DNA of 49,817 nucleotides from IMG/VR virus record IMGVR_UViG_3300043398_000437, positions 1 through 49,817 of that record; one strand, 5' to 3'. Positions within the stretch are counted from its first letter, which is position 1. Each line of letters begins with the position of its first letter. The position numbers and the translations under genes are program-made. The notes under the pieces are model-generated. The model did no database searches and was not told the origin of the DNA. It saw only the letters and a program-made list of their open reading frames with translations. This document shows positions 1,550 through 36,074 of this stretch, piece by piece. The DNA is from a virus.

Positions 1550-2232
1550 TGGTGATGGTGTCAAACCAGACCGGCGTCGAGGTTGGTCTGCTGGCTGGGA
1601 AACACCCAGGCCTCGTAGGGCACCTGTTCAGCCCCACCGCTCAGCGCGGGCCATGGCGCGAGATCCCGTACGCGCTCGACAACGGCGCGTGGCCGGCTCA
1701 CCTAAGCGGCGAGGAGTGGAACGTCGACGAGTGGCGTCATCTCCTGCGATGGGCAGCGCTATGCGGAGTTCCACCGTTGTGGGCCGTGGTCCCTGACGTC
1801 GTCGGCAACCGCGCCGAGACACTCGCTCGCTGGCCTCAGTACGTGGAAGAGGTGCGCGCGCTCGGATTCCGCCCGGCGTTCGCGGTTCAGGACGGGATGG
1901 CATTCGAGGACGTACCCGACCACGAGTGCATGCTGTTCATCGGAGGCAGCGACGCGTTCAAGGACGCCGCGATCGACCCGTGGTGCACTAGGTTCCCGGG
2001 TCGAGTCCACGTCGCGCGGGTCAACGGCTGGGACAGGCTCACAAGGTGCTGGAAAGCCGGCGCGGTGAGCGTAGACGGCACGGGATGGTTCAACAAGGGA
2101 CGCGGCGGATACAGCCAGCACGCCGACCTGCGCAAGTTCCTCCGCGAGACGGATCGACTTGCCGTGGTGATGGAGCAGGCCACTGCGTCGGTCTTGGCCC
2201 GTAGGACGGCGCGATCGCGTGGTGGGAAATGA
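1549..2232 (+). CDS. dpdA: DpdA-like DNA-guanine transglycosylase (TGT superfamily)
   Basis: 227 residues from ATG 1549, overlapping the queD stop (TGATG); ATG 1555 is an alternative. Landmarks fit a short phage TGT-fold protein: YALDNGAW near residue 40, VVPDVVGN near 80 (the Asp is the expected nucleophile), FAVQDGM near 110, FIGGSDAFK, HVARVNG, and SVDGTGWF near 180 (second conserved Asp). The Cys/His zinc site of bacterial tRNA transglycosylases is absent, as in phage DpdA-like proteins. The family replaces guanine in DNA with a 7-deazaguanine such as preQ0, protecting phage DNA from host restriction. The adjacent QueD would help supply precursor. Which base is made, and the exact DpdA subfamily, cannot be told from sequence. 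Confidence 0.75.
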   Translation: MVMVSNQTGVEVGLLAGKHPGLVGHLFSPTAQRGPWREIPYALDNGAWPAHLSGEEWNVDEWRHLLRWAALCGVPPLWAVVPDVVGNRAETLARWPQYVEEVRALGFRPAFAVQDGMAFEDVPDHECMLFIGGSDAFKDAAIDPWCTRFPGRVHVARVNGWDRLTRCWKAGAVSVDGTGWFNKGRGGYSQHADLRKFLRETDRLAVVMEQATASVLARRTARSRGGK

Positions 2233-2245
2233 GCGAGGGAGAGCG

Positions 2246-3196
2246 GTGAGGATCGGCTCGCTCTTTAGCGGCATAGGTGGACTGGAAATGGGCCTTGAAC
2301 GCGCCGGGCTCGGCCACACGGTGTGGCAGGTCGAGCGCGACGAGTACTGCCGCCGCGTCTTGGCACGCCACTGGCCCGACGCAGAAAGGTTCGATGATGT
2401 CTGCACGTTCCACCCGCCAACTGGAGTTGACGTGGTCTGCGGAGGATTCCCCTGCCAGCCCTGGAGCGTCGCCGGAAAGCGCCGAGAGCACGAGGACGAG
2501 CGACATCTCTGGCCCGAGTTCGCGCGCATCGTCGAAGAAGCGCGGCCGGCCATCGTCGTTGGGGAGAACGTGCCAGGGCTGCGAGCTCGTGGCCTGCGAA
2601 TCGTGCTGGCCGACCTTGCCCGCCTCGGGTTCGATGTGGAGTGGACGTGTCTCAGCGCAGCCGATGTCGGCGCGCCCCACCTTCGACGTCGGCTCTTCAT
2701 CGTTGCTACCCACCCAGAGCGCATCAAGCTACGGGTCGAATCAGGGCGGCTCAGCAGGACGAACGGGTCCAGTGCGCCACTCGCTGCAGAGCATGGCCGC
2801 AAAGGCGCTGTGGCCGACTCCGACGGTCAAGGGCAACTACAACAAGGCTGGCTTGAGCGCGCGATCGGGCGATGGGCTTGCGACTGCCGTGAATCGCTGG
2901 CCAACCCCCACGGCGAGACTCGGCGATCCGAAGCGCGGGATGCCGTCGGAGGCGACGGCCGCGAAGAGGTACGCGCAGGGCAGGAGGAACCTGGACGACG
3001 CGGTGACGCTCTTGCCGTTGAACGAGGTGGTTCATCGTGGCACGCCTGGGCCACTGAACCCGACGTGGGTAGAGTGGCTCATGGGGTTCCCGCTAGAGTG
3101 GACCGCCTGCGCGCCCTCGGCAACGCGGTCGTCCCGCAAGTCTCCGAGGTCATCGGCCGCGCCGTCGTCGCGGCTACTGAGGAGGTGAGGACGTGA
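2246..3196 (+). CDS. C5-cytosine DNA methyltransferase
   Basis: 316 residues. GTG 2246 is preferred (GAGGGAGA upstream; the protein begins VRIGSLFSGIGG), though GTG 2219 is in frame. Class I C5-MTase motifs are in order: FSGIGGLEMG (AdoMet binding), GGFPCQPWS (catalytic Cys, about residue 70), VGENVPG, HLRRRLFIVA, a variable 130-residue target-recognition stretch, and RALGNAVVPQ (motif X). It methylates cytosine in DNA, probably for protection or regulation, and sits directly after DpdA. I see no partner restriction enzyme. The variable region is overlaid by a second protein-like frame (see 2277-3188). Confidence 0.9.
   Translation: MRIGSLFSGIGGLEMGLERAGLGHTVWQVERDEYCRRVLARHWPDAERFDDVCTFHPPTGVDVVCGGFPCQPWSVAGKRREHEDERHLWPEFARIVEEARPAIVVGENVPGLRARGLRIVLADLARLGFDVEWTCLSAADVGAPHLRRRLFIVATHPERIKLRVESGRLSRTNGSSAPLAAEHGRKGAVADSDGQGQLQQGWLERAIGRWACDCRESLANPHGETRRSEARDAVGGDGREEVRAGQEEPGRRGDALAVERGGSSWHAWATEPDVGRVAHGVPARVDRLRALGNAVVPQVSEVIGRAVVAATEEVRT
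2277..3188 (+). CDS. Possible overprinted ORF inside the cytosine methyltransferase gene
   Basis: A +1-frame ORF of up to 303 codons (GTG 2277; true start unknown) lies entirely within the methyltransferase gene. Its second half does not look like a random shadow. It has LLPTQSASSYGSNQGG, ALWPTPTVKGNYNKAG, RWPTPTARLGDPKRG and LNPTWVEWLMGFPLEWT. As I recall them, WPTPT repeats and a closing WVEWLMGFP are hallmarks of a family of phage proteins usually filed beside DNA methylases. The other frame stays a canonical MTase over the same bases, so a sequencing frameshift does not explain both. Its stop (3186-3188) falls in the ribosome site of the next gene. Whether it is translated is unknown. Confidence 0.4.
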   Translation: MDWKWALNAPGSATRCGRSSATSTAAASWHATGPTQKGSMMSARSTRQLELTWSAEDSPASPGASPESAESTRTSDISGPSSRASSKKRGRPSSLGRTCQGCELVACESCWPTLPASGSMWSGRVSAQPMSARPTFDVGSSSLLPTQSASSYGSNQGGSAGRTGPVRHSLQSMAAKALWPTPTVKGNYNKAGLSARSGDGLATAVNRWPTPTARLGDPKRGMPSEATAAKRYAQGRRNLDDAVTLLPLNEVVHRGTPGPLNPTWVEWLMGFPLEWTACAPSATRSSRKSPRSSAAPSSRLLRR

Positions 3197-18850: not shown

Positions 18851-20598
18851 GCGCCCTCACGGAAGACGTGGCGCGAGCCGCGCGGGTTCTTCAGGTAGTC
18901 GACGGCCACCGAGGTCATCGCGACCGCGAAGCGGTCCGGGTCGTCGGTCATGACCATCACCTCGTTGTGCTGGCTGACGTTGACGTTCTGCTTCGGTGGC
19001 TTCGAGGCGTCGTCCTTGCTGTTGGCGTTCGGCAGCGCCTTGAGCCCCTTGATGAACAGCCCGGCCGGGTCCATCAACGCGCGCGCCGCCGCCGGCACGA
19101 GCGACGGGATCTGCTGGAGCCCGGCGTTGAACGAGCCGATCGCCTTGGCCGCGGTCGCCCACGCCGCGTGATCGAGGAGTCGGTTCAGTGTGCTGATGTA
19201 GCCCTGGATCTCCGGGACCATAATGCCGGCCTGGCTTCCGGTCTTGAAGATCGCGTTCTCGTCGACCTTCCCACCACGGATGTAGCCTTCGGCGCGCGCG
19301 GTCGCGAGCACGCGCGCCGCAATGCGCGACTGTGCCGCCTCGGTCCCGGCCGTGGCGGCGAACGCCGCATCCCGGCCGGAGAACCGGTCGCCGCCGAACA
19401 TCCCGCCGAACTGCGCCATGCCCAGCTCGCCCATGCTCCGGCGCGCCGTGCCCCAGTTCGCCTGCGAGTCGATCCGGCGGGTCTGCATATCGTCGGCGTG
19501 GTCGGCGAGCAGCGTGGCCGTCGCGGCGACGCCGGCGAGCAGCGTGGACACGCCGCCGATGCTCCTGGCGAACCCCGCCAGGGACCCCAGCCCGCCCCCG
19601 TTGAGCTGCGCCAGCGAGCCGACGACGCCCTGCACGCTTCCCGTGACCAGCCCGACGCCCTTGCCGACGAGGTATGCCTTCGCCAGCGTCATCAGCAAGT
19701 CGCGGTGCTCGACGATGAACCCGGCGATCTTCTTGACCATGTCGAACCCGGTCTTGAGCGCCGACGTGAAGTCGGCCGCCCACTGCTTGATCTTCTCCGG
19801 GTGCTTCTCGATCCAGGTGTTCCACTTCGCGATCTCGGCCGTGATGCTCTTGAACAGCGGCAGGCCGATCTTGCCGAGCGCGATGGAGAGGTTGTCCTTC
19901 AGCGTCGAGGTCACGCCAGCGAAGGACTCGCCCATCGCCTTCGCCGCCGACTTGAGCGCCGGGTCGTTCAGCGCGCGCATCGTGATCTTGGCGCGGTCGG
20001 CGGCGCTCGAGCGGTTGAATCGCTCCTGGGAGATGCCCTGCGAGGCCAGGAAGATCTGCGCGGTGCGGTCGCGCGCGCCCACGGTGCCGGCGAGCATCTG
20101 CTTCACGTCGAGCGCGACCATGTCCGCGCGTTCGCCGAGCGCGGCCGCCGCGATCGTCGCGCCGACGGTCATCTCCTTGAGCTGCTTCATCCCCAGGCCA
20201 GCCTGCATCGCCGACGAGGCGATCATCTGGTGCATCTCGAGGAAGTCCTTCGTCTCGCCGACGGAGTTCTTGGCGACCTGCTGGTAGTCCTGGAAGAGGC
20301 CGGTCGCGTGCGACATCGCCGTGTCCCACCTGCCACCGAGGAGCATCTTCTCCTGCGCGGCGAGCGAGATGGTCGACTGCTCGATGCTCGAGTTGAAGTC
20401 GATGAACATCGACTTCCCGAGGCGGAAGGCGCCGTAGCCGGCCAGCGCCGCGCCGACGCCCCTGAGCGCCGAGACCAGCCCGCCGGTCGACTTCGAGGCG
20501 CGCTCGGCGCCCTGGCCGATCTTGTCGAGGCCGCCGGACGCGGAATCGCGAGTCTTATAGAGTACTTCGATGGCGTACGTCGTGGTCGTACCGCTCAT
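18847..20598 (-). CDS. Tail tape measure protein
   Basis: 583 residues from ATG 20598. Opens TYAIEVLYKTRDSASGGLDKIGQGAERASKSTGGLVSALRGVGAALAGYGAFRLG, the usual tape-measure start. It is followed by long helices, a hydrophobic mid-section (LLMTLAKAYLVGKGVGLVTGSVQGVVG) and a C-terminal NVSQHNEVMVMTDDPDRFAVAM. It sets tail length; at about 0.15 nm per residue it would predict a tail of roughly 85-90 nm (inference). An HNH gene separates it from the chaperone genes. Confidence 0.85.
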   Translation of the reverse strand: MSGTTTTYAIEVLYKTRDSASGGLDKIGQGAERASKSTGGLVSALRGVGAALAGYGAFRLGKSMFIDFNSSIEQSTISLAAQEKMLLGGRWDTAMSHATGLFQDYQQVAKNSVGETKDFLEMHQMIASSAMQAGLGMKQLKEMTVGATIAAAALGERADMVALDVKQMLAGTVGARDRTAQIFLASQGISQERFNRSSAADRAKITMRALNDPALKSAAKAMGESFAGVTSTLKDNLSIALGKIGLPLFKSITAEIAKWNTWIEKHPEKIKQWAADFTSALKTGFDMVKKIAGFIVEHRDLLMTLAKAYLVGKGVGLVTGSVQGVVGSLAQLNGGGLGSLAGFARSIGGVSTLLAGVAATATLLADHADDMQTRRIDSQANWGTARRSMGELGMAQFGGMFGGDRFSGRDAAFAATAGTEAAQSRIAARVLATARAEGYIRGGKVDENAIFKTGSQAGIMVPEIQGYISTLNRLLDHAAWATAAKAIGSFNAGLQQIPSLVPAAARALMDPAGLFIKGLKALPNANSKDDASKPPKQNVNVSQHNEVMVMTDDPDRFAVAMTSVAVDYLKNPRGSRHVFREGA

Positions 20599-21107
20599 CG
20601 ACGTGCCTTATCTTCAAGGTGCCGCCACGTGCGTCGGTTGGCGATCTTGCTGATCGCACCATGGTTGACACCGAAGGCGGCCGCGAGCTCCATCAGTGTC
20701 TCTCCGGCAGCTCGCCGAGCTCGAATCGCGAGCACGTCGGCCTCGACCAGCTTCGCGCGACCGTGTGCCTCTCCGCGGGTCTTGTCGGCGTGGCGCGGCC
20801 CACGCGACTGGCGACCCTTCGAGACCATGTCGTCCGCGTTGTCCTGGACCGAACCGAGGAATAGGTGCCCCGGACGCACGCACCGCGGGTTGTCGCAGCG
20901 GTGGCACACGAAGATCCCATGAGGAATCGGGCCGTTCGCCATCTCCCATGAGAGGCGATGCGCGTAGTCCTGGCGGCCGCCGCTCCGGCGGCTCCCGCCG
21001 ACGCCGATCACGCCGTAGCCGCGCCCGGCCTTGGCCCCGGTCCACTCCCAGCAGCCGTCGCCGATGCGGACCTTCGACCAGAAGCGGTCCTCGACGCTGA
21101 TGCCCAC
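20595..21107 (-). CDS. HNH endonuclease 1 (type A)
   Basis: 170 residues from GTG 21107. Zinc/HNH core CWEWTGAKAGRGYG...RLSWEMANGPIPHGIFVCHRCDNPRCVRPGHLFLG...ADDMVSKGR, followed by a C-terminal HTH (LIEADVLAIRARRAAGETLMELAAAFGVNHGAISKIANRRTW). This is the usual free-standing phage homing layout. It is inserted between the chaperone and tape measure genes and overlaps the tape start by 4 nt. DNA stretches near 20880 and 21045 are close copies of those in HNH 2. Confidence 0.9.
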   Translation of the reverse strand: MGISVEDRFWSKVRIGDGCWEWTGAKAGRGYGVIGVGGSRRSGGRQDYAHRLSWEMANGPIPHGIFVCHRCDNPRCVRPGHLFLGSVQDNADDMVSKGRQSRGPRHADKTRGEAHGRAKLVEADVLAIRARRAAGETLMELAAAFGVNHGAISKIANRRTWRHLEDKARR

Positions 21108-21764: not shown

Positions 21765-22286
21765 CTACTGCGTCACATGTGCCCAAGTACGGCGGAGCAC
21801 GATGCTGGTGATGGTCGGCGGGCTAACGCCAAATCGGCGCGCCAGCCTCTTCTTCGGCTCCCCTGCGGCGTGGAGGTCGCGGATCTCGCGCACGCGCATC
21901 TCGTCGAGCACCGCCATCCCGTGCGACTCGCCTCGCGGCATAAGCTCACGGTGCAGCCGCGCTCCGTTTGCATCCGCGCGCGGGCGAGGGTGCCTCGACT
22001 GGCGCCCCTTAGCCCTCATGTCGGCCATGTTGTCCTTGTGCGTCCCGAGGAACAGGTGCGACGGGCGCACGCACGCCGGGTTGTCGCAGCGGTGGCACAC
22101 GAAGATCCCATTGCCGATCGGGCCATTGGCAATTTCCCATGCGACGCCATGCGCCAATCGAACCCGGCCGGATTCCCAAAAGGCTCCGTACCCCGCCGAA
22201 GTGCGGGCTGCAGTCCACTCCCAGCACCCGTCGCCGATGCGGACCCTCGACCAGAATCGGTCTTCTTTGCTACTGCGACAGGACAT
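21765..22286 (-). CDS. HNH endonuclease 2 (type A)
   Basis: 173 residues from ATG 22286, overlapping the tail-tube stop by 17 nt. Same plan as HNH 1: CWEWTAARTSAGYG, ...NGIFVCHRCDNPACVRPSHLFLGTHKDNMADMRAKGRQ, then an HTH tail (EMRVREIRDLHAAGEPKKRLARRFGVSPPTITSIVLRRTW). It separates tube from chaperone. Invasion by a mobile endonuclease is the simplest reading. Confidence 0.9.
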   Translation of the reverse strand: MSCRSSKEDRFWSRVRIGDGCWEWTAARTSAGYGAFWESGRVRLAHGVAWEIANGPIGNGIFVCHRCDNPACVRPSHLFLGTHKDNMADMRAKGRQSRHPRPRADANGARLHRELMPRGESHGMAVLDEMRVREIRDLHAAGEPKKRLARRFGVSPPTITSIVLRRTWAHVTQ

Positions 22287-22738: not shown

Positions 22739-24298
22739 CTACGCCGCGGCGTCCGTGGCGACCGTCACCCCGGTGCCCATGTTCGTGCGGAGCACGAGGC
22801 CCAGGATGTGGCCGTAGAGCTTCACGTTGGTCTGGATGACCTCGACGCCCTGGGCGCGAGCCTCCTCGGTGTTCACCTCGGGGCCCTGCTCGACGCTGAA
22901 GTCCTTCACGATCTGCTTCGCCCGCTTGAAGCCGGAGAGGAAGGCGACGACCTCGCCGCCGATCTCGGCCTGCACGTCCTCGGTGTTCTCCTCCTTGACG
23001 AAGTCCTGGAGGGCCTCGGACATGCTCAGCTGCAGGTAGTCGACCTCGCGGCGGCGCGCGATCTGCGACCGCTGCGAGGTGAGGTCGGTGGTCACGCCGG
23101 AGACGAACACGAAGCCGGGGTTGCCGCCGGCGGTGCGCTCGAGCGCGCAGATCCCGGCGGCGCGCAGGTCCTTGTAGTCGTCGCCGGTGAGGGTTTCGTA
23201 GGTGAGACCCTTGATGCCGGCGTTGTACGCCTTCGTCCGGTTCGAGCCGACGTGCTGGTTCACAGCGGTCTGCGAGAAGCACGACGCCATCGCGTGGTGC
23301 GGCGGGACCTGGATCTGCGCGCCCGTCTGCGGATCCAGCATGTAGGGCGAGTTGAAGCAGTAGACGACCCGGTCGCTCGCCGTGAGCCCGGCGACGTCGC
23401 TGATGACGTCGGTGGCCTCGTCGGCGTGGTTGCCGCTCCAGATCGCGAACATGCGGTCCGTGGCGGTCGCGGCGGCGGTGATGATGGCGCCGTTGATGGT
23501 CGAGCCGGCGCGCTCGGCGACGAGCGCCAGCGCGACGCCGGGGTAGGCCGCGATCTGGTCGATCGCGCGCCCCGTGGCGGTGTAGTCGGTGTCGGCGATC
23601 GTACCGTCCGTGCCGGCGACGGACGTGAACGACGCCACCGTCTCGCCGAGGTTGATGTACCCGTCGCTGTCGAGCCCGGACATGGCCGCCGTGAGCGGCG
23701 TCCCGCTCGCGAGCTTCGTGAGGACGATCCAGTTGGCCTCGTCGTCGCCGATCACGTTGAGCGTGTTGTCCTGGCCGGTGGTGATGTCGAGGTTCTCGTA
23801 GAGCTTCGTCTGGCCGAGGTAGCTCACGCGCAGGTTGAAGTGCGTGGCGTCGCCATCGGTGGCTGCCTCGACCTTCACCTTCACGTCGTTGCCCCACGTG
23901 CCTGGGCTCGACGCGTCGACCTTGAGCACCGCCGTGCCGGAGCCGTTGGCCGCCGTCTCGAGCGTGAACGACGCGGCCACGGCCGCCGCGGCGCACGCGC
24001 GCACGCACACGAGGCGGCCGAAGGGCTTGCCGAGCAGGGCCTTGTGGATCTCGCCGAGGTAGGTGCCACCCGTGCCGTCAGCGGTCTTGTCGCGCCCGCC
24101 GAAGACCTCGAGGAAGCGCGCCTTGCTGGTGATGACGACGGGGGTGTCGACGGGGCCGCGCACGCACGCGCCAGCGATGGCGACGGTGTTCCTGGAGATC
24201 CCCTGCACGAAGCCCGGGCCTGCCAGCTCTGTCACGTATACGCGCTCGAGCGCCGTGTACTCGGCGGGATTGCTCGTGAAAAGGATACTCGGAGACAT
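22739..24298 (-). CDS. Tail sheath protein
   Basis: 519 residues from ATG 24298. Typical sheath landmarks: GFVQGISRNTVAIAGACVRGPVDTPVVITSKARFLEVFGG near the start, then GTYLGEIHKALL and ASSPGTWGNDVKVKVEA. A central domain follows (YPGVALALVAER), with GLTYETLTGDDYKDLRAAGICALER and the C-terminal polymerisation domain (RRREVDYLQLSMSEALQDFVKEENT...LYGHILGLVLRTNMG). It forms the contractile outer tail and therefore defines the phage as a myovirus. Confidence 0.92.
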   Translation of the reverse strand: MSPSILFTSNPAEYTALERVYVTELAGPGFVQGISRNTVAIAGACVRGPVDTPVVITSKARFLEVFGGRDKTADGTGGTYLGEIHKALLGKPFGRLVCVRACAAAAVAASFTLETAANGSGTAVLKVDASSPGTWGNDVKVKVEAATDGDATHFNLRVSYLGQTKLYENLDITTGQDNTLNVIGDDEANWIVLTKLASGTPLTAAMSGLDSDGYINLGETVASFTSVAGTDGTIADTDYTATGRAIDQIAAYPGVALALVAERAGSTINGAIITAAATATDRMFAIWSGNHADEATDVISDVAGLTASDRVVYCFNSPYMLDPQTGAQIQVPPHHAMASCFSQTAVNQHVGSNRTKAYNAGIKGLTYETLTGDDYKDLRAAGICALERTAGGNPGFVFVSGVTTDLTSQRSQIARRREVDYLQLSMSEALQDFVKEENTEDVQAEIGGEVVAFLSGFKRAKQIVKDFSVEQGPEVNTEEARAQGVEVIQTNVKLYGHILGLVLRTNMGTGVTVATDAAA

Positions 24299-24301
24299 TG
24301 C

Positions 24302-24775
24302 TTAGCTCCTCTGCCTTGCGCGCGCCTTTGAGGCGGCTGCAGCGGCAATGACGCACGTGCGGCAGGCGCGGCCAAGTCGGCCGTTGCGCTTGGACTGCAC
24401 GTACGTGTTCTCGGGCGTGAACTCGTGCCCACGCTTGCAGTGGGTCTTCTCGGCGTTGGCACGCGCCAGCGTGTGGCCGCGCAGGATGTTCACACGCGCC
24501 GTCACCGGTTCCAGGTGGTCCGGGTTAACGCAGCACGTCGTCCTGCACTTGTGGTCGATCTGGAGCGCTTCGGGGATGGCGCCGCGCAGCATCTCGTAGA
24601 CGACGCGATGCGCCTTCTGCATGCGCATGCGGCCTGCAGGGTCACGTCGCGAACCGATCCCGACAGAGCCGTATCCGCCACGCTTCGCGACGGCGCCCAT
24701 CCAGATCCAGCAGCCCGAGTTCGGCTCGGGCAGGATCTTCGACTGCAGGCGCTCTGGCAGATCGAGCAGGTTCAC
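24302..24775 (-). CDS. HNH endonuclease 3 (type B)
   Basis: 157 residues from GTG 24775; a 161-residue form from ATG 24787 is possible. I prefer 24775 because the product then begins VNLLDLPERL like HNH 4 (MNLLDLPDRL), and because it puts the 18-nt element 11 nt upstream as at other genes. HNH core: NSGCWIWMGA...GYGSVG...LQIDHKCRTTCCVNPDHLEPV, then CKRGHEFTPENT. The last 80 coding-strand bases at the 5' end differ from HNH 4 at only three or so positions: a recent duplication. It lies between the sheath and the tail terminator genes. Confidence 0.85.
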   Translation of the reverse strand: MNLLDLPERLQSKILPEPNSGCWIWMGAVAKRGGYGSVGIGSRRDPAGRMRMQKAHRVVYEMLRGAIPEALQIDHKCRTTCCVNPDHLEPVTARVNILRGHTLARANAEKTHCKRGHEFTPENTYVQSKRNGRLGRACRTCVIAAAAASKARARQRS

Positions 24776-24786
24776 GTTCAGCACCA

Positions 24787-24804
24787 TGCGTCGCGACCCT
24801 GCCC
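24787..24804 (-). repeat. 18-nt intergenic element, copy 6
   Basis: Perfect consensus (GACGCA form). It abuts the TAG of the tail-terminator-like gene; its last base would be the A of ATG 24787. Confidence 0.85.
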
Positions 24805-28838: not shown

Positions 28839-28856
28839 TACGCTACGACCCTGCCC
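28839..28856 (-). repeat. 18-nt intergenic element, copy 7 (degenerate, at the HNH 4 3' end)
   Basis: Gene-strand GGGCAGGGTCGTAGCGTA: the first 11 bases match perfectly and the TAG stop of HNH 4 lies inside it. Unlike other copies it is not near a start codon; the capsid ATG is 188 nt away. Confidence 0.6.
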
Positions 28857-29274
28857 GCGCCTTGAAATAGGCGGCGTCTCTCCGTCGAGCGCACTCTCGG
28901 CAGACCCTGCACTTCGTGCCAGAGCCGGCCATCGAGACGCGCGTGTTCTTGGGCGTGAACTCATGCCCGCGCTTGCAGTGCGTCTTCTCGGCGTTCTTCC
29001 GAGCCGGCGTGTTGCCGCGCATGAGGTTTTCTCGGTCGGTAACGGGCTCGAGGTGGTCGGGGTTCACGCAGCACCGCGTGCGGCACTTGTGGTCCAGCAC
29101 CATCCCATCCGGGATAGGCCCGCGCAGCGCCTCGTACGTCACGCGATGAGCGCGGGAATTCCAGTCGCGCCCGTACCCCGCTTCGCTCAGCGCGCCCATC
29201 CAGATCCAGCAGCCCGAGTTCGGCTCTGGCAGGATCTTCGACTGCAGGCGATCTGGCAGATCGAGCAGGTTCAT
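28843..29274 (-). CDS. HNH endonuclease 4 (type B)
   Basis: 143 residues from ATG 29274. MNLLDLPDRLQSKILPEPNSGCWIWMGA, RAHRVTYEALRGPIPDGMVLDHKCRTRCCVNPDHLEPV, CKRGHEFTPKNT, then CRVCRECARRR (zinc). Strongly similar to HNH 3, including near-identical DNA over the first 80 bases. It splits scaffold from capsid, two genes normally adjacent, so it is almost certainly a late insertion. Confidence 0.9.
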   Translation of the reverse strand: MNLLDLPDRLQSKILPEPNSGCWIWMGALSEAGYGRDWNSRAHRVTYEALRGPIPDGMVLDHKCRTRCCVNPDHLEPVTDRENLMRGNTPARKNAEKTHCKRGHEFTPKNTRVSMAGSGTKCRVCRECARRRDAAYFKARAGS

Positions 29275-32828: not shown

Positions 32829-34634
32829 CTACGAGCTCTTGAAGCTCAGCCGCCCGGGCTTCTTCGCTGCCGTGGGCGCCACGGGCTCGCCCTCGGGGTC
32901 GTCGGCGCCGTCGGCCGCGGCACTGGCCATCGCTACGCTCGCCTCGGCGTTGGCATCCTTCACCATCGTCTCCTGGGCGAAGGCGCTCTCGAGCTCCTCG
33001 TCGATCGCCTGCACCACCTCGGGCGTGGCCTTCTCGCCCAGCACCTTGATGCACACGTCCTTGGTGTGCAGGCGCTGGAACGTCGGCGACGGGATGTTGA
33101 CCGTGCCGAGCGACACGGCCTGGTCAATCACGTCGCCGAGCGAGTCGAGGTCGAAGGACTCCCACCCCTCGGCCTTCCACTCCGTCTCGGTGCTGTCGCC
33201 GCGGCCACGTTCGACGGTCTCGATGATGCGGAGCGACTGCGCGCGTAGCAGCCGGCCGAACTCCTCGAGCACGACCGTGCGATCTTCCTTGTCCTGGCCC
33301 TTCGACTCGGCGCTGCGCCCCAGCGAGGCGCCGGTGTTGTTGGTCGCCAGCGCCATCTGGTGCGTCACGCGGTGCATCTCGTCGCGCAGGTCGTGCGTCG
33401 ACGCGAGCGCCGTCGCGAATGGCGTCGAGTCCGGGCCGATGTACTCGGCCTTGTCGGTGGCGTTGCGGATCTGCACGAATCCCTGCCCGCGCGTCTGCGT
33501 CACGGCGCGGTTCGGGTCGGCCGCGTCACCAGAGTCCGTGCTGCCGGCCATGTCCTCCGGGCCGAGGAACTCGTACAGCAGCGGCAGCAGGCTCTTGTGC
33601 TCGGCCCAGTCGAGGGCGTTGCGCTTGTTGAAGTGCGCGCGCGCCGGCGACTCGAGCTTGCCCATGGCCCACAGGCCCTCGGGCAGCACGAACGGCACGA
33701 GCGGCACGCGCGGGAACGTGTGCGCGCCCTTCGCCACGAGGAACACCGGCGTGTCCGCCTCGGGCTTGCGGTCCTTCGTGTAGCGGATCTCGTACTGCTC
33801 CCATGACCTCCGGTCGTAGACGGTGAAGCGTTCGACGATCTGCCCGCGGGTCACCCGCCAGTCGCCACGCGGTACCTCGCGCGTCCATCGGATGGCCCAG
33901 AGCAGCTCGCCCGAGTCGTCGGCCTCCCAGTCGATGACCTCCTCGGGCTCGACGTGCACCAGGTACGCGTCGAGCTCGCCTCGCTTGACTTGGTCGGCGA
34001 GGTTCGCGGCCGGGGGCGCGTTCGGATCGCGCATCTCCGGCAGATCGACGAGCGTCCACACGCGGCGCGTCTGCAGCGCCGTGCGCAGCTGCTCGAGCAT
34101 GTGCTGTTCGAATGTGCAGGTCTCCCCACCCGGCTTGCTCACGTCCTCGAGGAACTCGCCCCAGTACTCGTCGGGGAGCTCGATCTCGTCGGCCGCGTCT
34201 TCATCGCCCTCGGCCTCGACGCCGACACGGATCGGATCGCTGGCGAGGCCCGACACGAACCAGTCGACGATGGCGCCAGAGTAGTTCAGGTAGAACGCGC
34301 GCCGGCACCGCTCCTCGTAGACGTTCGGCAACTCGGCGAGGTGCTTCGGGAAGACCTCGCGCATGAGGTCGCGGTTCTCAAGGAGGAACGCGCCGCCCTT
34401 GTAGAACGCGCGGCACCGGCGCCACGTGCCGGCGAGGTACTCGGGGTTGCGCTGGGAGAGTAGCCAGTAGGCCATCGACTGGCCCTTGCCGTACTCGACG
34501 CGCACCGTCGCTGGCGCGGACCGCTCGTCGAGCGGGCGCGGGTCGTAGACGCCGTCGCGCGTCAAGCCGGCCCCGGCACCGCCGGCGCCGCTGTCGTTCG
34601 GGTACTCGGGGAACGGGCCGCGGATCTCGGACAC
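32829..34634 (-). CDS. Portal protein
   Basis: 601 residues from GTG 34634. Starts with a disordered Gly-rich stretch, then YWLLSQRNPEYLAGTWRRCRAFYKGGAFLL, FYLNYSGAIVDWFVSGLASDPI, VHVEPEEVIDWEADDSGELLWAIRWTRE, FPRVPLVPFVLPEG, HFNKRNALDWAEHKSLLPLLYEF, and HRVTHQMALATNNTGASLGRSAESK (crown helix region). Order and the acidic/disordered ends are typical of DUF4055-like portal proteins. It forms the dodecamer at the packaging vertex, beside the terminase. An 18-nt element ends 10 nt before the start; no SD. Confidence 0.85.
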   Translation of the reverse strand: MSEIRGPFPEYPNDSGAGGAGAGLTRDGVYDPRPLDERSAPATVRVEYGKGQSMAYWLLSQRNPEYLAGTWRRCRAFYKGGAFLLENRDLMREVFPKHLAELPNVYEERCRRAFYLNYSGAIVDWFVSGLASDPIRVGVEAEGDEDAADEIELPDEYWGEFLEDVSKPGGETCTFEQHMLEQLRTALQTRRVWTLVDLPEMRDPNAPPAANLADQVKRGELDAYLVHVEPEEVIDWEADDSGELLWAIRWTREVPRGDWRVTRGQIVERFTVYDRRSWEQYEIRYTKDRKPEADTPVFLVAKGAHTFPRVPLVPFVLPEGLWAMGKLESPARAHFNKRNALDWAEHKSLLPLLYEFLGPEDMAGSTDSGDAADPNRAVTQTRGQGFVQIRNATDKAEYIGPDSTPFATALASTHDLRDEMHRVTHQMALATNNTGASLGRSAESKGQDKEDRTVVLEEFGRLLRAQSLRIIETVERGRGDSTETEWKAEGWESFDLDSLGDVIDQAVSLGTVNIPSPTFQRLHTKDVCIKVLGEKATPEVVQAIDEELESAFAQETMVKDANAEASVAMASAAADGADDPEGEPVAPTAAKKPGRLSFKSS

Positions 34635-34644
34635 AGAGGCAGGG

Positions 34645-34662
34645 TGCGCCGCGACCCTGCCC
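34645..34662 (-). repeat. 18-nt intergenic element, copy 10
   Basis: Perfect consensus. It overlaps the last base of the terminase stop and ends 10 nt before GTG 34634 of the portal gene. Confidence 0.85.
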
Positions 34663-36074
34663 TAGCCGAACGGCAGGAACGGCGCCGCGCGGGCGCCGCG
34701 CAACTTCGGCACCGGCACGTAGAGCGCGTCGTACCCGTGCACGCTCGCGTCTACCTGGTCGTCGTGGGCGTCGCCCTGGCCGGTGAACGCAAGGTGCTCG
34801 GCGATGTACTCGACCGCCCACGGCGCATCGTCCGGCACCCGCACACGACCGCTGTTCCATGCCGCCGACCACACCTGCGAGCGGGTGAACTTGTCGGTCG
34901 TGGGCTTCACCTCGAGCACGCGCAGACCGGGCGCGATGTCCCGGAGCATCTGCGGTACGGCCTTGAAGCCGGCGACGGACTCGGCCACGACGCCGCATCC
35001 GCGCTTCCTCGCCAGCGCCGCCACGCGCCGCACGAAGGTCGGGATCTCCTCCTGCGCGCGCACCACGTCGAGAACGTAGGCGATCGCGTCGTCGCCGTAG
35101 CCCTTCACGGCAAGCAGCACGGCCACCGAGTAGTCGGCCGACGTCTTGGCCGTGGCAGCTGGATCGACCGCCCAGATGAGCCGGTATCCGTCGAGCCGCG
35201 TCGTGGCCAGCGAGAAGCGCGCCGGCTCCTTGAACAGCGATAGGCCGCGCGGGCGCGGGCGCTGCTGGTACAGCGAGGCCCAGTTGTACTCGCCCGAGGT
35301 GCGGCGAATGGTGCGCAGTCGCTCGAGCGGAAAGCGTTCAGGCCACAACGCCACGCCATCGTCGCCGTCATCTGCCTGCCCGGTCACCGGGTTGCGGATG
35401 GCCGGCATCTCGATGACCTGCCACTCTTCGCCGGTGTCGCCGCGCTTGATGCGCCCGATGAGGTCGTCCTCATGCCAGCGAGTCGCGACCACGATCACGG
35501 ACGCGAAGTCCTCGAGCCGGTTGTAGAACGTGCCCTGGAACTGGTCCCACACCCGCTCGCGGATCACCGGGCTCTCGGCCTCGACGCGGTCCTTGTGCGG
35601 GTCGTCGATGACGAGCCACCCCTTGACGCCGAGTCCGGTGATGCGGCCCATGACGCCCGTGGCGACCAGTCCGCCGCCCTGTGGCGTGCGCCAGAGGTTC
35701 ACCGCCTTCGTGTCGTCGGCTAGTCGCAGGCCGGCGTCGGCGGCCACGTTGCGCATCCACCGCGACTGCGTCTCGGCCTGCTCGGAGCCGTACGCCACGT
35801 ACGCGTTCAGCAGCGAGGGGTTGCGCTGCATGTGCCAGATGAGCGCGCGCATGATCGTCATGCTCTTCGCGTGCCGCGGCGGCATCGACACGAGCAGGCG
35901 TACCGGCCGGTGGCCTGCGCGCTCGAGCGCCGGCAGGAGCTCCCACCCGATGTGCTCGGGCGGTGGCTCGCGCGGCGCGACGCGGCGGATGAACGCGTCC
36001 AGCGACTCGCCGCCGTACTGCGCCTCAAGCAGAGCGAGGAGCTCGAGCTCCTCAGCTTCCGTTAGGTTTTGCAC
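34662..36074 (-). CDS. terL: Terminase large subunit
   Basis: 470 residues from ATG 36074. ATPase: VRLLVSMPPRHAKSMT (Walker A, about residue 65), WLVIDDPHKD (Walker B), VVATRWHEDDLIGR (coupling motif). RNase H-like nuclease: WAVDPAATAKTSADYSVAV (first Asp), and HDDQVDASVHGYDAL (final Asp). It packages DNA into the procapsid through the portal. It overlaps terS by 23 nt. Confidence 0.93.
   Translation of the reverse strand: MQNLTEAEELELLALLEAQYGGESLDAFIRRVAPREPPPEHIGWELLPALERAGHRPVRLLVSMPPRHAKSMTIMRALIWHMQRNPSLLNAYVAYGSEQAETQSRWMRNVAADAGLRLADDTKAVNLWRTPQGGGLVATGVMGRITGLGVKGWLVIDDPHKDRVEAESPVIRERVWDQFQGTFYNRLEDFASVIVVATRWHEDDLIGRIKRGDTGEEWQVIEMPAIRNPVTGQADDGDDGVALWPERFPLERLRTIRRTSGEYNWASLYQQRPRPRGLSLFKEPARFSLATTRLDGYRLIWAVDPAATAKTSADYSVAVLLAVKGYGDDAIAYVLDVVRAQEEIPTFVRRVAALARKRGCGVVAESVAGFKAVPQMLRDIAPGLRVLEVKPTTDKFTRSQVWSAAWNSGRVRVPDDAPWAVEYIAEHLAFTGQGDAHDDQVDASVHGYDALYVPVPKLRGARAAPFLPFG

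Follow-up and report, generated by a model that had tools for sequence, protein, structure and literature searches.

A viral DNA stretch of 49,817 nucleotides (IMG/VR record IMGVR_UViG_3300043398_000437, positions 1 to 49,817; hereafter the window) carries a C5-cytosine methyltransferase gene whose bases are also read, in the +1 frame, as a second protein. The two overlapping frames very probably encode a single two-subunit DNA (cytosine-5) methyltransferase of the M.EcoHK31I type, as suggested by comparison of related loci. The large subunit (alpha, frame 0) would contribute the S-adenosylmethionine-binding and catalytic large domain (motifs I-VIII) as well as motif X, with what appears to be only a flexible linker between motifs VIII and X, lacking a target-recognition domain (TRD) or motif IX. 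The small subunit (beta, +1 frame), with its own putative internal ATG and ribosome-binding site, would supply the variable recognition region, composed of exchangeable PTPT modules, together with motif IX. Together, alpha and beta would form one active enzyme, with beta determining its specificity.

The methylase frame is open from 2219 to 3196 on the plus strand. Its likeliest start is the GTG at 2246 (GTG 2219 is also possible), giving a predicted protein of 316 amino acids (2246..3196) in which motifs I-VIII and X were assigned using Pfam, PHROGs, AlphaFold, and Foldseek. This protein matches Pfam DNA_methylase (7.9e-43), aligned solely to profile positions 2-167 of 324, and phrog_363 among PHROGs (2.7e-76). 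Motif IV, with the catalytic cysteine of PCQ (2450..2458), is invariant in the alpha alignment, as are G292, N293, and P297 of motif X (LGNAVVPQ, 3116..3139). Alpha is an intact C5-methylase catalytic subunit. The first-pass annotation, made from the sequence alone, was correct on the intact frame and on motif X; its statement that all motifs are present does not hold, as motif IX is absent from the methylase frame.

The +1 frame is open from 2277 to 3188 on the same strand, with a longest run of 303 codons. That much was already annotated, and the peptides then listed (LLPTQSASSYGSNQGG, WPTPTVKGNYNKAG, RWPTPTARLGDPKRG, and LNPTWVEWLMGFPLEWT) are all present in this frame; however, the likely start is not GTG 2277, but ATG 2397 or possibly ATG 2394. 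A Shine-Dalgarno (SD)-like sequence, AGAAAGG (2383..2389), lies 7 nucleotides 5′ of ATG 2397. The product, beta, would have 263 amino acids (2397..3188), and its putative role as the target-recognition region plus motif IX draws on a PHROGs match, permutation, and homologues; its predicted translation includes LNPTWVEWLMGF. The +1 open reading frame (ORF) matches phrog_1008, named 'DNA methyltransferase', at 1.5e-25 over residues 20-292. A beta alignment profile searched against PDB sequences returned nothing relevant. The +1 frame evidently encodes a real second protein.

Conservation and selection of the +1 frame

Related loci were gathered in two sets of searches, one using the +1 protein as the query and the other the methylase protein, the methylase protein alone recovering 180 loci. 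They come from phages of Lacticaseibacillus, Paenibacillus, Escherichia, Salmonella, Bacteroides, and Synechococcus, from uncultured viruses, and from one proteobacterial metagenome-assembled genome. Of 272 related loci, spanning 32-69% G+C, 271 have the methylase overlapped by the +1 protein in one and the same register. This strongly supports the earlier suggestion that the +1 product is a recurrent phage protein found within methylase genes. In the first set, all 171 loci (154 distinct, the rest duplicating a contig) have the methylase and a same-register +1 ORF of 465-1140 nucleotides; in the second set, the register is the same in 101 of 102 rows, one of which is the window itself. The sole exception (L191) has a frame break in its contig. 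At the lower end of the G+C range, both frames of L088 are open at 32%. No free-standing beta gene was found among the loci fetched, beta always accompanying a methylase. Cellular monomeric methylases, which lack the +1 protein, served as controls, as did loci L312-L331, which were chosen because Pfam missed their middle and are mostly monomeric with motif IX in frame. Two loci, L181 and L192, have unusually long +1 overlaps of 1275 and 1611 nucleotides, respectively, and one contig (L122, 133-1952) has two tandem dual-coded methylase pairs, each with its overlap in +1, which is the reason for its divergent listing.

The +1 frame was compared with a permutation null, in which synonymous codons of the window gene were shuffled 2000 times while the methylase protein and its codon usage were kept. 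The +1 run of 303 codons was equalled in 8 of 2000 shuffles (permuted mean 154.5). Scored against +1 profiles built without the window, the window's +1 frame reached 121.5 bits, versus a mean of 28.1 and a maximum of 71.5 for the shuffles (z 9.1); a second, independent +1 profile gave z 9.0 in the same test. Likewise, 147 of the 154 distinct loci had a real +1 profile score higher than that of any of their 20 permutations. One control, L290, had a weak beta score of 31.7 bits.

To determine which frame is selected where, nucleotide differences were classed as synonymous or not in each frame, using a simple count with Jukes-Cantor correction over 49 disjoint pairs of loci. For alpha, changes nonsynonymous in both frames were related to those synonymous in alpha only (dNN/dSN), and for beta to those synonymous in beta only (dNN/dNS). 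Over motifs IV-VIII, the ratios were 0.19 for alpha and 0.55 for beta, and substitutions over all pairs peak at the alpha third codon position. Between motifs VIII and X, the ratios are reversed, to 0.84 [0.71-1.03] for alpha and 0.16 [0.13-0.18] for beta, with substitutions over all pairs peaking at the beta third codon position (4338 vs 1931 and 1950). The variable region is under purifying selection in the +1 frame only; therefore, the +1 frame is a functional protein there, and the methylase frame is kept open while evolving nearly neutrally. In the C-terminal stretch, both frames are constrained (alpha 0.36, beta 0.22). Monomeric cellular methylases analyzed in the same way show no such flip, their +1 dNN/dNS being 0.82 before and 1.07 after motif VIII. 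Selection on both frames over the recognition region had been proposed initially; the +1 frame is indeed selected and synonymous constraint is present, but the methylase frame is near neutral there and predicted to be disordered.

Codon choice in alpha GRVAxG points in the same direction. Its valine codon is GTG in 102 of 103 cases, compared to about 28.5% elsewhere, and its arginine codon is CGA or AGA in 102 of 103, as the Glu-Trp of beta in the overlapping frame requires.

Motif IX, putative recognition modules, and probable translation start

In canonical C5 methylases, motif X is preceded by motif IX, for example RRLTPRECARLQGFP. A motif-IX-like pattern, loosely written as L[TN]x6L[MQ]G[FY], occurs in 248 of 272 betas and in 4 of 272 alphas, and motif IX is in frame in 30 of 40 cellular control proteins. 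Scores above 5 bits against a motif-IX profile were obtained for 72 betas, no alphas, and 2 of 816 permuted +1 frames. The element at the beta C-terminus takes the form LNPxWVEWLMGFPxGWT; in the window, it is LNPTWVEWLMGFPLEWT (3054..3104), where alpha reads EPDVGRVAHGVPARVD from the same bases, an assignment suggested by the pattern counts and by the codon fixation in GRVAxG.

Alpha lacks features of monomeric enzymes, having neither motif IX nor a small recognition domain in the same chain. Its AlphaFold model is confident over residues 1-170 (mostly with a predicted local distance difference test score, pLDDT, >90) and 284-315, and the pLDDT is <50 over most of residues 177-262, the variable region. 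Foldseek relates the model to M.HaeIII/M.HhaI (E about 1e-14) over ~170 columns, corresponding to the large domain only. Three loci (L022, L057, and L082) have an alpha that ends once motif VIII is complete, with the beta frame extending into motif X; these natural cases show that alpha can dispense with its reading of the variable region.

The variable part of beta is a series of PTPT-headed modules, usually one to three. In the window, these are module 1 (2709..2813, beginning PTQSASSYGSNQGG), which alpha reads as near-neutral linker, module 2 (2814..2900, PTPTVKGNYNKAGLSARSGDGLATAVNRW), and module 3 (2901..3053, beginning PTPTARLGDPKRG), the last assigned from its sequence and the same repeat pattern. 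Modules were compared between loci whose catalytic domains are dissimilar (239 pairs; mean catalytic-domain identity 44.3%): module identity is 73.7% in beta and 32.8% in the alpha reading of the same bases, the differences being concentrated at the beta third codon position. For instance, window module 1 and module L054.1 are 66% identical in beta and 18% in the alpha reading, and window module 2 and L102.1 are 89% and 44% identical, respectively, in loci whose catalytic domains share 48%. By analogy with multispecific Bacillus phage methylases, the natural reading would be that recognition modules are exchanged between loci. Considered together, the position of the variable region, its selection, and module exchange suggest that beta recognizes the target.

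In 103 of 269 loci (~38%), versus 28.5 expected by permutation (~11%), an ATG with an SD-like site closely precedes the position of the methylase PCQ, and +1 stop codons often lie immediately upstream of the internal ATG. Thus, internal initiation is favored as the probable means of translating beta. The further idea that the two frames exchange by frameshift to switch specificity is not supported by this enrichment or by the stops. Near the beta N-terminus, a clamp-binding-like Q[LM]x[LMF][FLW] occurs in 84 of 269 loci, compared to 2.1 expected. The window beta has QLELTW in this region, a poor match to the QL[SD]LF-type clamp motif, and clamp binding by beta may be taken as a lead only.

Competing explanations and related systems

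The explanation with virtually no remaining credibility is that the +1 frame has no product and simply shadows conserved methylase motifs in G+C-rich DNA. Open frames are common at 67-70% G+C, and alpha does force part of the +1 similarity in motifs IV-VIII, permuted sequences still scoring ~28 bits. However, the +1 frame is also present at 32-45% G+C, exceeds the permutations in the window (z 9) and in 147 of 154 loci, and alone is selected in the variable region, with nothing comparable in cellular controls. A shadow of the motifs was thereby ruled out by permutation, codon fixation, and variable-region selection, a high-G+C artefact by the extension of the family down to 32%, and a general property of C5 methylases by the cellular controls. 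Programmed frameshifting that joins alpha and beta into alternative enzymes of switching specificity is very improbable. It would accommodate the uniform register, and a ribosome moving into +1 past motif VIII would join the catalytic motifs to the recognition region and motif IX of beta, but a beta start with an SD-like site occurs far above expectation, and selection on the +1 frame is already apparent before motif VIII (dNN/dNS 0.55 vs 0.82 in controls); no systematic search for a shift site was made.

Somewhat more plausible, and still unlikely, is that beta, though genuinely overprinted, is a phage protein with no connection to methylation, such as a sliding-clamp-binding or anti-host factor, that lies in the methylase gene by chance. 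The clamp-like QLxLF motif, at 84 of 269 loci versus 2.1 expected, and the absence of a confident fold for beta alone would fit such a protein. Yet beta was not found apart from the methylase in the loci fetched, it holds the motif-IX-like element missing from alpha, its variable modules sit at the position of the recognition domain, and in L022, L057, and L082 it extends into methylase motif X. The initial proposal that the variable domain doubles as another protein is strongly supported as to overprinting, but not as to an unrelated protein, the +1 product being best read as the missing recognition and motif-IX half of the same enzyme.

The small polypeptide of M.EcoHK31I is reportedly encoded inside the alpha gene in an alternative frame, a report attributed to Lee et al. 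in 1995, and the second polypeptide of the phage family likewise lies within the large-subunit gene in another frame. M.EcoHK31I (YGGCCR) is a bacterial C5 methylase that is split in nature, with motif IX on a separate small polypeptide (PMC3404938), and the phage family similarly has motif IX on its second, smaller polypeptide. The likeness is one of architecture; shuffled PTPT modules, and in many cases a QLxLF N-terminus, set the phage family apart. Several points count against assigning recognition and motif IX to beta. A review of M.EcoHK31I puts the predicted TRD in the large subunit (PMC3404938), whereas in the phage family the selection results assign the variable region to the small +1 subunit. 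With hhalign, the beta C-terminus aligns to canonical motif IX in the expected register, but weakly (11 columns, probability 10%, pairwise E 0.003). Modelled by itself, beta gives a low-confidence AlphaFold structure (mean pLDDT 57.9), so that its recognition-domain fold is putative, although a poor model might be expected for a subunit that needs its partner. The alpha-beta complex and its methylation activity are presented as predictions.

M.AquI also has catalytic and recognition parts on separate polypeptides, and L022, L057, and L082, with motif X on the second chain, resemble it; M.AquI carries motif X on the small subunit, whereas most loci here keep it on alpha, with beta wholly inside the alpha gene. 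Multispecific Bacillus phage C5 methylases have exchangeable recognition modules between motifs VIII and IX and are single-frame monomers, unlike the present family, in which the modules are read in an overlapping +1 frame. The ShiLan out-of-frame HNH element of mycobacteriophage methylases (PMC11855218) is likewise an additional protein concealed within a phage methylase gene in a different frame, but it is an inserted homing endonuclease, whereas here the overlap involves the enzyme's own core. A ShiLan-type insertion was ruled out, since nothing is inserted and the overlap covers conserved motifs. Annotated beta homologues, nested in a C-specific methylase gene, include phage K1G ORF30 ('Mte8-like protein') and PHROG 1008; these annotations give neither a function nor a partnership. 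No account of overlapping C5 methylases in phages was found in the open literature searched. What is new here is the breadth of the arrangement in phages, the evidence that the recognition region is read in +1, the module shuffling, and the clamp-binding-like QLxLF at many beta N-termini.

As a rule, gene overlap contributes a small accessory protein; in this case, the two halves of a single enzyme appear to be written in the same bases. The DNA-recognizing half would evolve in one frame, with the other doing no more than staying open, and this arrangement persists across phages of many hosts. A bolder extension, toward which we lean slightly less than we lean away, is that a very large phage methyltransferase family has its whole target-recognition apparatus overprinted on the catalytic gene, with specificity modules passing from phage to phage as DNA cassettes that have to remain open in both frames, and that the recognition subunit of many members also binds the host sliding clamp, coupling methylation to phage replication. 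Annotation pipelines usually record alpha alone; therefore, the subunit that determines specificity may have been missing when many phage methylases were cloned or predicted. They can also call an open alpha broken: in an E. coli EC20 prophage (L332, 2495-3661), the Prokaryotic Genome Annotation Pipeline (PGAP) calls two incomplete pseudogene pieces, though alpha is open throughout, and misses the open +1 frame. The beta modules offer a ready-made set for mapping sequence to methylation target.

Genomic surroundings

Other genes in the window, among them tail sheath, portal, and terminase genes (22739-24298 and 32829-36074, minus strand), identify it as a contractile-tailed phage fragment, judging by sequence. 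Upstream of the methylase gene, a QueD-like 6-pyruvoyl-tetrahydropterin synthase gene (1178-1546; PF01242, 6.8e-33) is directly followed by a gene for a phrog_15826 protein (1543-2232), which we take to resemble phage DpdA-type transglycosylases. These two genes may form a 7-deazaguanine DNA-modification pair directly upstream of the methylase. An N4/N6 DNA methylase (PF01555; 43047-45373, minus strand) is encoded beside a phage DNA helicase and is therefore a second methyltransferase in this virus. Four small ORFs among the structural genes (20595-21107, 21765-22286, 24302-24787, and 28843-29274, minus strand) have an HNH-endonuclease-like look and are candidates for such enzymes. The contig end (1-130) consists of a low-complexity CCG/CGC-type repeat that reads as proline-, arginine-, or alanine-rich runs.
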